Of a stretch of 64,000 nucleotides of DNA, positions 3,956 to 38,658 are shown one piece after another (the first letter of the stretch is position 1; the number at the start of each line of letters is the position of its first letter). The notes under the pieces were generated by a model. That model saw nothing but the letters and a program-made list of their open reading frames with translations. It had not been told where the DNA came from and did no database searches. The position numbers were made by a program, and so were the translations under genes. The DNA is taken from IMG/VR virus record IMGVR_UViG_3300034284_002793, positions 1 to 64,000 of that record; one strand, given 5' to 3'. The stretch is from a virus.

Positions 3956-4027
3956 TAGAGGCAGTAGGACTTGAACCTACAACCCTCACCTTATCAAAGT
4001 GATGCTCTGCCATTGAGCTATGCCTCT
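3956..4027 (-). tRNA. tRNA-Ile(GAT)
   Basis: Acceptor AGAGGCA pairs with TGCCTCT. The anticodon stem TCACT/GGTGA closes loop TTGATAA, giving GAT (AUC/AUU). T arm GTAGGTTCAAGTCCTAC. Discriminator A; CCA not encoded. Confidence 0.92.
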
Positions 4028-27619: not shown

Positions 27620-28054
27620 TGGTGGAGGTGAGGGGAGTTGAACCCCTGTCCAATTAATTTACATTAAAAATTCTACATGTTTATGTGTTTTTGGCGTTTG
27701 ATTGGCTAAAGGCCACCTTGGCAACACAAGCCTAACTTTTAAAGCCTGCCTATGCAGAGAACGTTCTGCATAACGCCCAACAATTATTTTTACAATTAAG
27801 TTGGCTTGGTAAACCTATTGCGTTTCCAATGCTTTTAATAGGATCCAGACATTGGTTCTTAGGCTGCTAAGAGCATTTCGTCCTCAACGCCAGCGAGAAA
27901 CTCGTCAGCGTTGTTGAAGATATACTCGGCTTCAGCCAAGATATCAGAAGTATTATCTTCTGCGTTTAGTTTTTAATCGATTTTTAACGAGGCCGTCGAT
28001 CAACCTCGACATGCATTTTTAATTTCAACTAGCTGTCGAAACCAATACACCCCC
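27620..28054 (-). ncRNA. ssrA: tmRNA (ssrA) with a 34-residue tag
   Basis: Single-piece tmRNA of about 435 nt. The 5' end GGGGGTG pairs with CACCTCC near the 3' end. The 5' part has GGTTTCGAC; the 3' part has the T arm GGACAGGGGTTCAACTCCCC and encoded CCA (27620-27622). The tag frame at 27963-27859 starts at a GCA resume codon, reads AEDNTSDILA ... EMLLAA and ends in TAA. It should release stalled ribosomes and mark peptides for host proteases. The tag is at the very long end of known tags but keeps the hydrophobic LAA-type end. A phage-borne copy could supplement or retarget trans-translation. Confidence 0.95.
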
Positions 28055-28302: not shown

Positions 28303-28396
28303 TGGTGGTTGATGTGGGAATCGAACCCACGCTCGGCCCTCATCTAGGGCACACAGTTTATAAAACTGTCGATGCTTCCAATTACATTAATCAACC
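28303..28396 (-). tRNA. class II tRNA with UAU anticodon, Leu-like body
   Basis: Acceptor GGTTGAT/ATCAACC (7 bp), anticodon stem ACAGT/ACTGT with loop TTTATAA giving TAT (AUA, Ile). However, the variable arm is long (GCCC-TAGATGA-GGGC). The D arm has a 3-bp stem and loop TAATTGG, as in tRNA-Leu; discriminator A also fits Leu; CCA is encoded. True tRNA-Ile has a short variable loop. The amino acid it carries is therefore uncertain: Ile by anticodon, Leu by body. Confidence 0.85.
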
Positions 28397-28403
28397 ATAA
28401 AAT

Positions 28404-28490
28404 TGGTAGCGGGGGTGGGATTTGAACCCACGAGGCCAAAGGGCGGTACGTTATGAGCGTACTGAGCTACCAGACTGCTCGCACCCCGCA
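28404..28490 (-). tRNA. tRNA-Met(CAT), initiator-like
   Basis: Anticodon loop CTCATAA gives CAT. Initiator features are the mismatched first pair (T1/T72) on acceptor GCGGGG/CCCCGC, and the D arm GAGC-AGTCTGGTA-GCTC with the A11-U24 pair. The three G-C pairs usual in the initiator anticodon stem are absent (GTACG/CGTAC), and one extra base precedes the D stem. CCA encoded. An AUA-reading elongator role is less likely. Confidence 0.88.
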
Positions 28491-37183: not shown

Positions 37184-38658
37184 TACAACAATCCATCTTC
37201 TTGATTTTCATTTTCAAATACGTTAACATCAACATTTCTTGCGTTAACGACATCTTCAAGCGTTCCACATTCGCTAACTTGAAAATTTTCAACCTTATAA
37301 TTAATAAAGTTAGGTTTGTAAGTGACTCTGCCTCGGTCATCGACAACGCGAACAAGATTTGAGTGACCCCTTGCATTTTTACCCTGATAGCGCGTAGCAA
37401 GCTCAATATACTTATGAGTGCCAAACTGGACACCATCTTCAGCCTGCTCTTCGATTGTTTTTCTTCTAAAGATACCAACTTGAGAAGCAAACCACTGTAA
37501 ACGATCTGACTGTGCAATGGCGCTAGAGTCATCTGTGCCACCCTCTGCCGATCTGTTTAATTGACATGCAGTAAGTAGTGGAATGTTTAAGCGCAAATGA
37601 CATTCTTTTAGCTTATCAACCTTTTCTCCAATAAGCTGATATTCTTGCTTATTTCCATCAGATTCTCCTGTAAGCTTAATATAGTCATAAACCACAATTG
37701 CAGGATTTCCACGACCAACATCACCATAATACCAGCGCTGAATCAAAGAAGTAATTTCTTCTGTCTTTTTTCTTGCAACTGTCATGTGCTGAACATGGCC
37801 AAGAGCTTGTTTTAATTCTTGCTTTTTGGATTCAAATTTTGCATACAACTCTCTATTCTTTTTATAATTTCCCGTTTCAAGCCACCACATTGGAACGCCA
37901 GTGATTGCACTTGCAATTCTAAATTTCATATCTTTAGTTTGCATTTCGGTATCCAGAATTAAAGCCTTGCAATTTGGATTAAGCAATGCTGTTTTAAATG
38001 CAATATCATTCAAGATTGTGCTTTTGCCGTGCTTTGGTCGAGACACCCAAGCATATACCTCTCCATTACGAAGACCGCCGTACATTTCATTAAAATTTTT
38101 ATATGGAGTAACGAGACCAGTATCGTTGATAGGATTATCTCCTCGCTCCTCAATCATTTCAACAATGTCATCAAAAAGATCTTCAGGCTTTTCATTAAGA
38201 TTATATGCTGAGATTTTTTCTCCATACATTTTATCAGCCAATGCAACAATTTCATCAGCTTCCATTTCCCCAGCAGAAATCATAGACTGGGCCATGCTTG
38301 AGGCCATTGTGTGTATGTCACGCCTAATAGAAAGTGTTTTTAATCTACGGCATGCATCTTCCAAAGCCTTATCGCTAATCTTAATGTATGAAAGGCTCTG
38401 TAGATAATTTAAAATATCTAAATTTCCTTTATAGGTAATGCCAAGGCTCTGCAGTCTTTCTGAAACGAGAACTGGATCGCTTGACTTATTATGCAAAGCG
38501 CAGTCTTTTAGTATTGCAAATATAGCACCGTGAGGCTTATGAATAAAGTCTTCTTCAGAAATTAAATGAATTAACTCAAGTAGCTTCTTGGGATTCTTTA
38601 AGAACCCTGCTATACAGTGTTTTTCAATTGTTTGATTTGCGATCTTGTCTTGATTCAT
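37183..38658 (-). CDS. replicative helicase, DnaB family
   Basis: 491 aa. The N-terminal helical domain (IEKHCIAGFLKNPKKLLELI) is followed by the RecA-type core from about residue 185: Walker A SRPKHGKSTIL, Walker B-like AIVVYDYIKLTG, LLTACQLNRSAEGG (H3/H4) and the arginine finger near ATRYQGKNARG. It unwinds the fork as a hexamer. It overlaps the dNMP kinase and primase genes. Confidence 0.95.
   Translation of the reverse strand: MNQDKIANQTIEKHCIAGFLKNPKKLLELIHLISEEDFIHKPHGAIFAILKDCALHNKSSDPVLVSERLQSLGITYKGNLDILNYLQSLSYIKISDKALEDACRRLKTLSIRRDIHTMASSMAQSMISAGEMEADEIVALADKMYGEKISAYNLNEKPEDLFDDIVEMIEERGDNPINDTGLVTPYKNFNEMYGGLRNGEVYAWVSRPKHGKSTILNDIAFKTALLNPNCKALILDTEMQTKDMKFRIASAITGVPMWWLETGNYKKNRELYAKFESKKQELKQALGHVQHMTVARKKTEEITSLIQRWYYGDVGRGNPAIVVYDYIKLTGESDGNKQEYQLIGEKVDKLKECHLRLNIPLLTACQLNRSAEGGTDDSSAIAQSDRLQWFASQVGIFRRKTIEEQAEDGVQFGTHKYIELATRYQGKNARGHSNLVRVVDDRGRVTYKPNFINYKVENFQVSECGTLEDVVNARNVDVNVFENENQEDGLL

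Follow-up and report, generated by a model that had tools for sequence, protein, structure and literature searches.

A viral tRNA-Ile(UAU) with a second anticodon-like arm that carries GAU

A tRNA with two tandem anticodon-like arms is encoded on the minus strand of the window studied here, a stretch of 64,000 nucleotides that is part of a viral record of 132,627 bases with 17 Rfam tRNA matches. The gene spans positions 28303-28396 (94 nt including an encoded CCA) and, with high confidence, its product is a class I-type tRNA for isoleucine into which one more anticodon-like stem-loop, some 17 nt long, is inserted after the anticodon arm and before the variable loop. ARAGORN calls it tRNA-Ile(tat), Rfam family RF00005 matches it with 48.4 bits (E 2.8e-7), and the R1 covariance model gives it 82.9 bits while the runner-up within the window reaches 56 bits. 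The free fold has five arms and a z score of -3.5 against 200 shuffled sequences, none of which is as stable. All general features of a tRNA are present: acceptor, D, anticodon and T arms, a T loop TTCGANT and the CCA end. An identical copy exists in two more viral loci (L272 and L314).

The 5' strand of the acceptor stem, GGTTGAT (28390-28396), pairs with 28307-28313 according to both the ARAGORN structure and covariation, and the acceptor branch is 7/5, as in the family consensus. The D arm (28372-28387) has the loop AATTGGAA, with A14, A15, G18 and G19. Its stem, ATGT/GCAT, was counted as 3 bp in a preliminary description of the tRNA; the ARAGORN structure and the fold give 4 bp, AUGU/GCAU with a U.G pair. 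Arm A (28353-28369) is the 5-bp anticodon stem-loop called by ARAGORN, ACAGT-TTTATAA-ACTGT, which keeps U33 and is presumed to be the decoding arm; its anticodon UAU, reading AUA, lies at 28360-28362 in the sequence and in the ARAGORN call. Arm B (28335-28351), delimited by covariation and family conservation, is the anticodon-like stem-loop TGCCC-TAGATGA-GGGCC with 4 bp that include C29b-G41b and C31b-G39b. Its 7-nt loop, UAGAUGA, lies 9 nt from the T stem and bears at 34b-36b (28342-28344) the triplet GAU, the anticodon of tRNA-Ile(GAU), evident from the sequence and the family pattern. The 4-nt linker GAGC (28331-28334) between arm B and the T stem has, by register comparison, the length of a class I variable loop. 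It is followed by the T arm GTGGG-TTCGATT-CCCAC (28314-28330, ARAGORN structure), the discriminator A73 (28306), read from the sequence, and the encoded CCA (28303-28305). The ordinary tRNA-Ile(GAU) of the phage, called by ARAGORN at 3956-4027 on the minus strand, serves for comparison.

The preliminary description had rightly seen the UAU anticodon and the discriminator A but took the molecule for a Leu-like class II tRNA with a long variable arm. An extra arm exists, and its geometry is that of a second anticodon-like arm, unlike the variable arms of Leu, Ser and Tyr tRNAs. In 440 such tRNAs the loop of the variable arm lies 3-8 nt from the T stem in 429, at 9 nt in 7, at 10 nt in none and at 11 nt in 4, and it has 4 nt in 287; set against these controls, the 7-nt loop at 9 nt in the window tRNA led us to reject a class II identity. 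In 2411 class I tRNAs of the same data the distance from anticodon loop to T stem is 9 nt in 969, 10 nt in 1299 and another value in 143. Family members were collected with a scanner for long-variable UAU tRNAs that requires a TTATA loop in arm A, A37, a TTC-type T loop and at least 6 acceptor pairs, and that limits the inter-loop distance by an imposed upper bound of 14 nt, missing members such as L253 and L287. It found at least 228 distinct sequences, 217 of which have a 7-nt loop with GAU at its centre, closed by a stem of 3 bp or more; the 11 without a centred GAU hairpin were left out of the family counts. Loop B of these 217 lies 9 nt from the T stem in 117 and 10 nt in 100. Sixteen members with two loops that the scanner set does not contain have distances of 10 nt (11 members), 11 nt (3) and 12 nt (2), and 80 bacterial stretches have 9 nt in 18, 10 nt in 59 and 11, 12 and 13 nt in one each. 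The spacing of 9-10 nt is a rule for nearly all members, not an absolute one.

The tRNA fold is maintained across the family. A73 is found in 213 and an encoded CCA in 167 of the 217 scanner members, and cloverleaf, T loop, A73 and decoding loop are kept over 66 clusters at less than 80% identity, TTATA and the TTC-type T loop being requirements of the scanner. RNAalifold recovers five arms from an alignment of 34 members hand-picked as 30 of the 66 clusters (all with CCA), the window tRNA and three phage loci, the forms with a tiny D arm being left out; compensatory changes occur at 20 of the 23 pairs of this structure. Chance is excluded as the origin of the two-arm structure because many diverged relatives carry the same two arms. 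A covariance model built from the 34 members gave 72-92 bits to eight two-armed members of a test set and at most 57.6 bits to other tRNAs, the exceptions being the member L373 (51.8 bits) and the UAU tRNAs without GAU L104 and L116 (57-59 bits). Many relatives have canonical class I D arms. The clearest case is that of Vibrio phage Achelous, a 76-nt class I tRNA plus 17 nt, with the D region TAGCTCAGTTGGTAGAGCA, the arms GCGGG-TTTATAC-TCCGT and AGCAA-CAGATAA-TTGGC (3 bp) and the variable loop TGGTC; its minimum-energy fold computed without constraints differs from the cloverleaf.

The other family patterns fix letters of loop B, and counts of these letters were therefore taken from a sequence-blind set of at least 120 stretches, retrieved with a pattern that fixed the anticodon loop and the T loop with a long gap and was silent on the extra arm. 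An arm was scored when a 7-nt loop on at least 3 contiguous pairs lay 9 or 10 nt from the T stem, with dereplication at 85% identity. Among the matches listed, the arm is present in 31 of 37 dereplicated long-variable UAU tRNAs, those without it at this register being L022, L049, L075, L092, L104 and L116. This is the rate, while the 227 of 240 TTATA tRNAs with the arm include loci fetched via the arm itself and give none. In the same matches listed the central triplet of arm B is GAU in 30/31 and GAC in 1/31, with A at 33b in 27/31, A at 38b in 20/31 and at 37b U in 18/31 and A in 6/31. GAC replaces GAU in L024 and in Lactobacillus phage 3-521.

The loop YAGAUNA of the extra arm is common to many UAU tRNAs with differing bodies. 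A pattern made of the loop CAGATTAG and a T loop, leaving the anticodon free, has at least 121 matches in the collected loci; among the matches listed, 112 are ARAGORN tRNAs, 111 with UAU and one with CAG, and a TTATAA or TTATAG loop can be read by eye in 8 of the 9 uncalled ones. The loop form CTAGATNAG gave at least 122 matches, of which 93 were called as tRNA and 82 of these as UAU; 10 calls of 'tacc' or 'ctc' are apparently UAU loops read out of register, and one further call is 'cta'. A TTATA loop lies upstream in 16 of the 29 uncalled matches to this form among those listed, one is cut and 12 are without it; these 12 have mostly no proper arm, but one of them, L346, combines an in-register GAU arm with an arm other than UAU. 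The register arm was found in only 6 of 601 long-variable tRNAs without a TTATA loop, 3 of the 6 being UAU tRNAs with G37, and the test on these 601 showed no such design on another anticodon, nor did inspection by eye of 52 odd long-variable tRNAs, including 9 misregistered UAU ones; L346 is the exception. UAU tRNAs called over all collected loci number 64 among the matches listed, 54 of them being 88-96 nt long.

Several sequences depart from this plan. The tandem-arm members L153, L155 and L345 have a decoding loop with G37 (..TATG..) in place of A37, and L345 has also C33. The UAU tRNAs of L104 (4399-4487) and L116 (8974-9064) feature a different extra arm (loops CTAACAA and CTAGCAA) outside the class I register, possibly a second design. 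UAU tRNAs of 80-82 nt with a shorter extra region occur in L022, L061, L105 and L106; for these a UAU anticodon on a Leu- or Ser-like body would be more plausible. The motif CTAGATAAG is found in the variable region of the non-UAU tRNA-like sequences L239, L299, L311, L315, L327, L330 and L346, mostly without a proper 7-nt-loop arm. Short-variable UAU tRNAs are common in viral contigs (at least 95 distinct) and arm B is therefore not always needed.

Isoleucine determinants listed in PMC9976931 are the discriminator, the anticodon and t6A37, the latter a strong determinant for the bacterial-type isoleucyl-tRNA synthetase (IleRS), with C4-G69, U12-G23 (as printed), C29-G41 and D-loop bases as minor elements in E. 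coli; the same source names A15-U48 as a leucine element. The trans-Levitt pair A15-U48 is missing from the window tRNA, which has A15 and C48, and the tRNA-Leu identity was discarded, as was the Leu-like class II body of the preliminary description. A73 is present as in tRNA-Leu and tRNA-Ile alike and does not discriminate between the two because it is common to both. An isoleucine anticodon (G34 or lysidine 34, A35, U36) is found on arm B and not on the decoding arm. C29-G41 is fixed by no pattern, although the arm-B tests demand a standard pair there; among the matches listed of the sequence-blind set its frequency is 23/31 for arm B and 8/31 for arm A (Fisher p=0.0003), compared with 37/68 for tRNA-Ile(GAU) and 144/1455 for other class I tRNAs of the same data. 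Among the matches listed of a second dereplicated set the values are 60/66 for arm B and 12/66 for arm A. Arm A still has some excess of this pair (8/31 vs 144/1455 other class I, p=0.01), and it is found in 30/75 short-variable, one-armed UAU tRNAs among the matches listed. The other class I tRNAs were sampled to at most 120 (sequence-blind set) or 60 (second set) sequences per anticodon and then dereplicated, and near-duplicates were removed at 80 or 85% identity ahead of the family counts.

Arm A has A38 in 24/66 members against 74/80 tRNA-Ile(GAU) and 859/1186 others (second set, among the matches listed), as if it had been freed from recognition. C4-G69 is uninformative (family 32/66, tRNA-Ile(GAU) 39/80, others 436/1186). 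The loop of true tRNA-Ile(GAU) is mostly CTGATAA or TTGATAA, from which arm B departs at 33b and 37b. Position 37b is G in the window tRNA, leaving the arm-B triplet without t6A37 beside it, while arm A has A37; in the family t6A37 is mostly impossible on arm B because 37b is mostly U (18/31) and A in only 6/31. The idea that AUNAG of loop B pairs with the UAU loop was dropped on the strength of these counts, the base opposite U34 being mostly U, not A.

The meaning of AUA was read from alignments of the phage ORFs with homologs of less than 85% identity in 82 loci; columns covered by 5 or more homologs were used. There are 73 such columns for AUA, 3 of which come from an antisense ORF (window 37901-38404, plus strand); the majority falls to I in 29 of them, to L in 17, to V in 9 and to another residue in 18. 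For AUU (198 columns) it falls to I in 105, to L in 35 and to V in 21, and for Leu codons (341 columns) to L in 188 and to I in 37. Ile is invariant at several AUA sites, for example in 63/63 sequences of a ribonucleotide-reductase-like protein (weak Pfam match). Column majorities and invariant sites together indicate that AUA almost certainly stands for isoleucine in this phage. The mean Leu share is 0.21 at AUA, 0.16 at AUU and 0.50 at Leu codons; the slight Leu excess at AUA over AUU is far below the Leu-codon value. The suggestion of the preliminary description that AUA could be read as Leu does not survive this comparison, and Leu charging or a code change at AUA was rejected. AUA accounts for 155 of 582 aligned Ile-codon columns and is therefore common in the phage, which also has the tRNA-Ile(GAU) at 3956-4027 and a CAU tRNA (L013 7875-7948) that presumably resembles Ile2.

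Relatives of the tRNA were sought in other phages, as the preliminary description had proposed, and many two-armed members were found, named phages included. A distant search with the 94 nt returned one long weak match (74.7% over 78%, E 0.2), which lies in Stenotrophomonas phage DLP_6. It is annotated there as tRNA-Ile-TAT and has the same D arm and extra arm as the window tRNA. Both arms can be read in Vibrio phage Achelous, Sinorhizobium phage Phosso, Lactobacillus phages LpeD and Lpa804, Acinetobacter phage vB_AbaS_qsb1 and DLP_6; 14 more Vibrio records score the same as the Achelous member. The search of named phages gave no match for an 8-kb stretch of the window nor for the member of L031. 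In the window phage, Achelous and the Lactobacillus phages the tandem-arm tRNA has ordinary phage tRNAs as neighbours. Four phages, including two Herelleviridae, have a gene for an HNH endonuclease some 30-440 nt downstream of the tandem-arm tRNA (L510 1814-2356, L512 1751-2371, L513 1623-2279, L514 2027-2308).

A three-part pattern run on a bacterial genome collection gave the 80 stretches mentioned above, 71 with both arms by a strict scan; several of the 9 failing it have both loops and a longer junction. Carriers include Ruegeria, Microbulbifer, Pseudoxanthomonas, Acidobacteria and others. In 398 genomes of one phylum the covariance model matched at least one, the centre genome, already a known carrier, and in the genus of that genome at least 4 of 48, two of them known carriers. 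These prevalences are lower bounds, as 10 (398-genome sample) or 89 (48-genome genus) candidates per genome were scored, and of 10 genomes with a known member the model recovered 8. The tandem-arm tRNA is patchy on chromosomes and appears to be an accessory gene that phages and other elements spread. The 10 scanned neighbours of chromosomal copies showed no common partner gene, their families being unlike or none (metallophosphoesterase, AAA, ribonucleotide reductase, LysR, ABC transporter, unknowns), and inspection by eye of genes downstream of the tRNA showed no excess of AUA. Twelve Ruegeria loci (L350, L360, L362, L372, L374, L378, L379, L386, L387, L409, L412, L420) have in common a gene family found at most 3 kb from the tRNA, on the same strand and downstream in the examples inspected, L374 excepted; its L350 member has no Pfam match, and tRNA and gene possibly form a leader-tRNA operon of an island.

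Two other RNAs were noted in the window. An initiator-like tRNA-Met(CAU) at 28404-28490 (minus strand), with a body that we take to be fMet-like, has a U1:U72 mismatch and a short extra hairpin GCC-CTTT-GGC; similar initiator-like tRNAs are found in L040 (1160-1244) and L064 (7079-7165). A phage tmRNA at 27620-28054 (minus strand) matches Rfam RF00023 with 152.7 bits and was not called by ARAGORN; its tag, judged by eye, appears to end in ...EMLLAA.

Recognition of a UAU anticodon is a known difficulty for IleRS; the bacterial enzyme normally reads G34 or lysidine 34 and UAU has neither. Such an anticodon also risks pairing with AUG. Synthetases that read the anticodon normally rely on one loop for both charging and decoding, and it is because the same loop serves both that bacteria use a modified base for the AUA/AUG problem. 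The reading of G34 or lysidine 34 by bacterial IleRS is described in PMC9976931. We propose as the simplest reading, giving it an even chance, that in the window tRNA arm B would serve IleRS as identity element and arm A would decode, TilS being bypassed. Arm A, with its loop UUUAUAA and U33 for the U-turn, would read AUA on the ribosome. Arm B, with its loop UAGAUGA, GAU, C29-G41 and A in the place of U33, looks made for recognition and not for decoding. The host IleRS would read arm B instead of the anticodon, the tRNA would be charged with isoleucine despite a decoding anticodon that starts with U, and the AUA-rich phage would gain an AUA-reading tRNA without lysidine from TilS. The two arms would compete to continue the D stem. 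The proposal draws on the register, GAU, C29-G41, the drop of A38 on arm A, A33b, the association with UAU and the Ile meaning of AUA, and on the engineered variable-arm (V-arm) pseudo-anticodon that recruited a synthetase domain. Its extension to a natural and widespread class of two-headed tRNAs of phages and mobile elements, with a duplicated anticodon arm in which UAU would decode and GAU, U33 being lost, would act as identity card for IleRS, falls just short of an even chance. Counted against IleRS reading are the mostly U 37b, the loss of U33, the 6/37 without the arm, the two GAC members and L346, together with the commonness of short-variable UAU tRNAs, the phage's own GAU and CAU tRNAs and the C29-G41 excess of arm A. 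The inactivity in E. coli of a possibly related allo-tRNA(UAU), given in the review PMC7609411, is counted against it as well.

Arm B might instead bind another partner, be it a host or phage protein, an RNA or, as a decoy, an anticodon nuclease, GAU being then a relic of a duplicated tRNA-Ile(GAU) anticodon arm that was retained for this partner. YAGAUNA is indeed a compact motif of a kind bound by proteins, A at 33b (27/31) with A at 37b in only 6/31 is unlike a true tRNA-Ile(GAU) loop (among the matches listed), and CTAGATAAG stands also beside the T arms of a few non-UAU tRNA-like sequences. We regard this as rather unlikely, as the most constant bases are exactly those of the Ile anticodon, C29-G41 recurs on arm B and not on arm A, and the register arm is very rare on non-UAU tRNAs, UAU being the known problem anticodon of IleRS. 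A regulatory or selfish tRNA-like RNA of mobile elements with little or no use in translation would agree with the patchy occurrence on chromosomes, with the gene family shared within 3 kb in 12 Ruegeria loci and with the allo-tRNA(UAU) of possible five-stem junctions and no activity in E. coli (PMC7609411). Such a role is improbable, given that cloverleaf, T loop, A73, CCA (167/217) and decoding loop are kept over 66 clusters and that the window phage, Achelous and the Lactobacillus phages place the gene among ordinary tRNAs.

The confinement of arm B almost entirely to UAU tRNAs, and the general knowledge that UAU may pair with AUG, would suit a function in decoding accuracy, the arm altering how the UAU arm is seated on the ribosome or barring MetRS so that AUG is not misread as Ile. 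Any hairpin would serve for this, leaving GAU and C29-G41 unexplained, and we give the idea little chance. A class II, Leu-charged tRNA reading AUA as leucine, like the nev-tRNAs in vitro, is very improbable: A73, G18G19, the long arm, a D loop that we take to be Leu-like and a Leu share somewhat higher at AUA than at AUU (0.21 vs 0.16) speak for it, while AUA columns are mostly Ile, A15 stands with C48 and not U48, the arm geometry is not class II and many relatives have canonical class I D arms. The other alternative of the preliminary description, an Ile tRNA grafted on an odd body, came close to the outcome, since a UAU anticodon does sit on an odd body; that body is class I-type with a second arm.

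If charging and decoding are divided between the two arms, one RNA would present different arms to synthetase and ribosome and AUA would be decoded free of lysidine. Identity and decoding would be physically separable within one tRNA, which is directly testable, and the AUA/AUG problem would be solved by copying a whole arm, a natural counterpart of an engineered design. Odd 'tRNA-Ile(TAT)' annotations in phages would then find an explanation, and genetic-code engineering would gain a chassis. The recurrence of the two-armed design in many phages and some bacteria suggests that reading and amino-acid choice may be split in one molecule. A full-text literature search, judged mostly by titles and abstracts, found no description of a natural tRNA with tandem anticodon arms. 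We therefore regard the tandem-arm tRNA as a new form of tRNA-Ile(UAU), whose mechanism would be categorically new if arm B is read by IleRS and arm A decodes.

The bacterial tRNA-Ile(UAU) of Mycoplasma mobile and Lactobacillus plantarum has an ordinary short variable loop and relies on an adapted IleRS. It has a UAU anticodon and reads AUA without lysidine, as proposed for the window tRNA, which differs by its second arm of about 17 nt with GAU in place of a short class I variable loop. According to PMC8450103, a UAU tRNA-Ile replaces Ile2 in some Bifidobacterium, Mycoplasma and Neorickettsia. The tRNA-Ile2 (CAU, with lysidine 34 made by TilS) is described as reading AUA, being charged by IleRS and avoiding AUG (PMC9976931); it answers by chemistry at C34 the same problem for which the window tRNA has an encoded second arm of proposed function. 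Nematode nev-tRNA-Ile(UAU), reported to have a tRNA-Leu-like V arm and to be Leu-charged in vitro (PMC4300185), resembles the window tRNA in its anticodon, UAU, and in the possession of an additional arm in the variable region. The likeness invoked in the preliminary description ends there: in the window tRNA the loop of this arm has 7 nt, contains GAU and lies at class I register, the arm has elements of the tRNA-Ile(GAU) anticodon arm, and membership among nev-tRNAs was rejected, neither the window tRNA nor its two-armed relatives having a tRNA-Leu-like V arm.

The review PMC7609411 describes allo-tRNAs as having an 8/4 or 9/3 acceptor branch, frequently with UAU, in bacteria including Proteobacteria and Acidobacteria, and allo-tRNA(UAU) as having a fifth loop between acceptor and D arm, possible five-stem junctions and no activity in E. 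coli. The window tRNA has a 7/5 branch and, compared with the review's description, carries its extra arm elsewhere, between anticodon and T arms; the two groups may nevertheless overlap. In the engineered system of PMC7590224, whose text contains neither 'UAU' nor 'isoleucine', a V-arm pseudo-anticodon recruited a synthetase anticodon-binding domain and modestly raised charging, and one reference cited there for the pseudo-anticodon idea concerns translational control of E. coli threonyl-tRNA synthetase. That system is man-made, works with His and depends on an added binding domain, unlike the window tRNA, which is natural.
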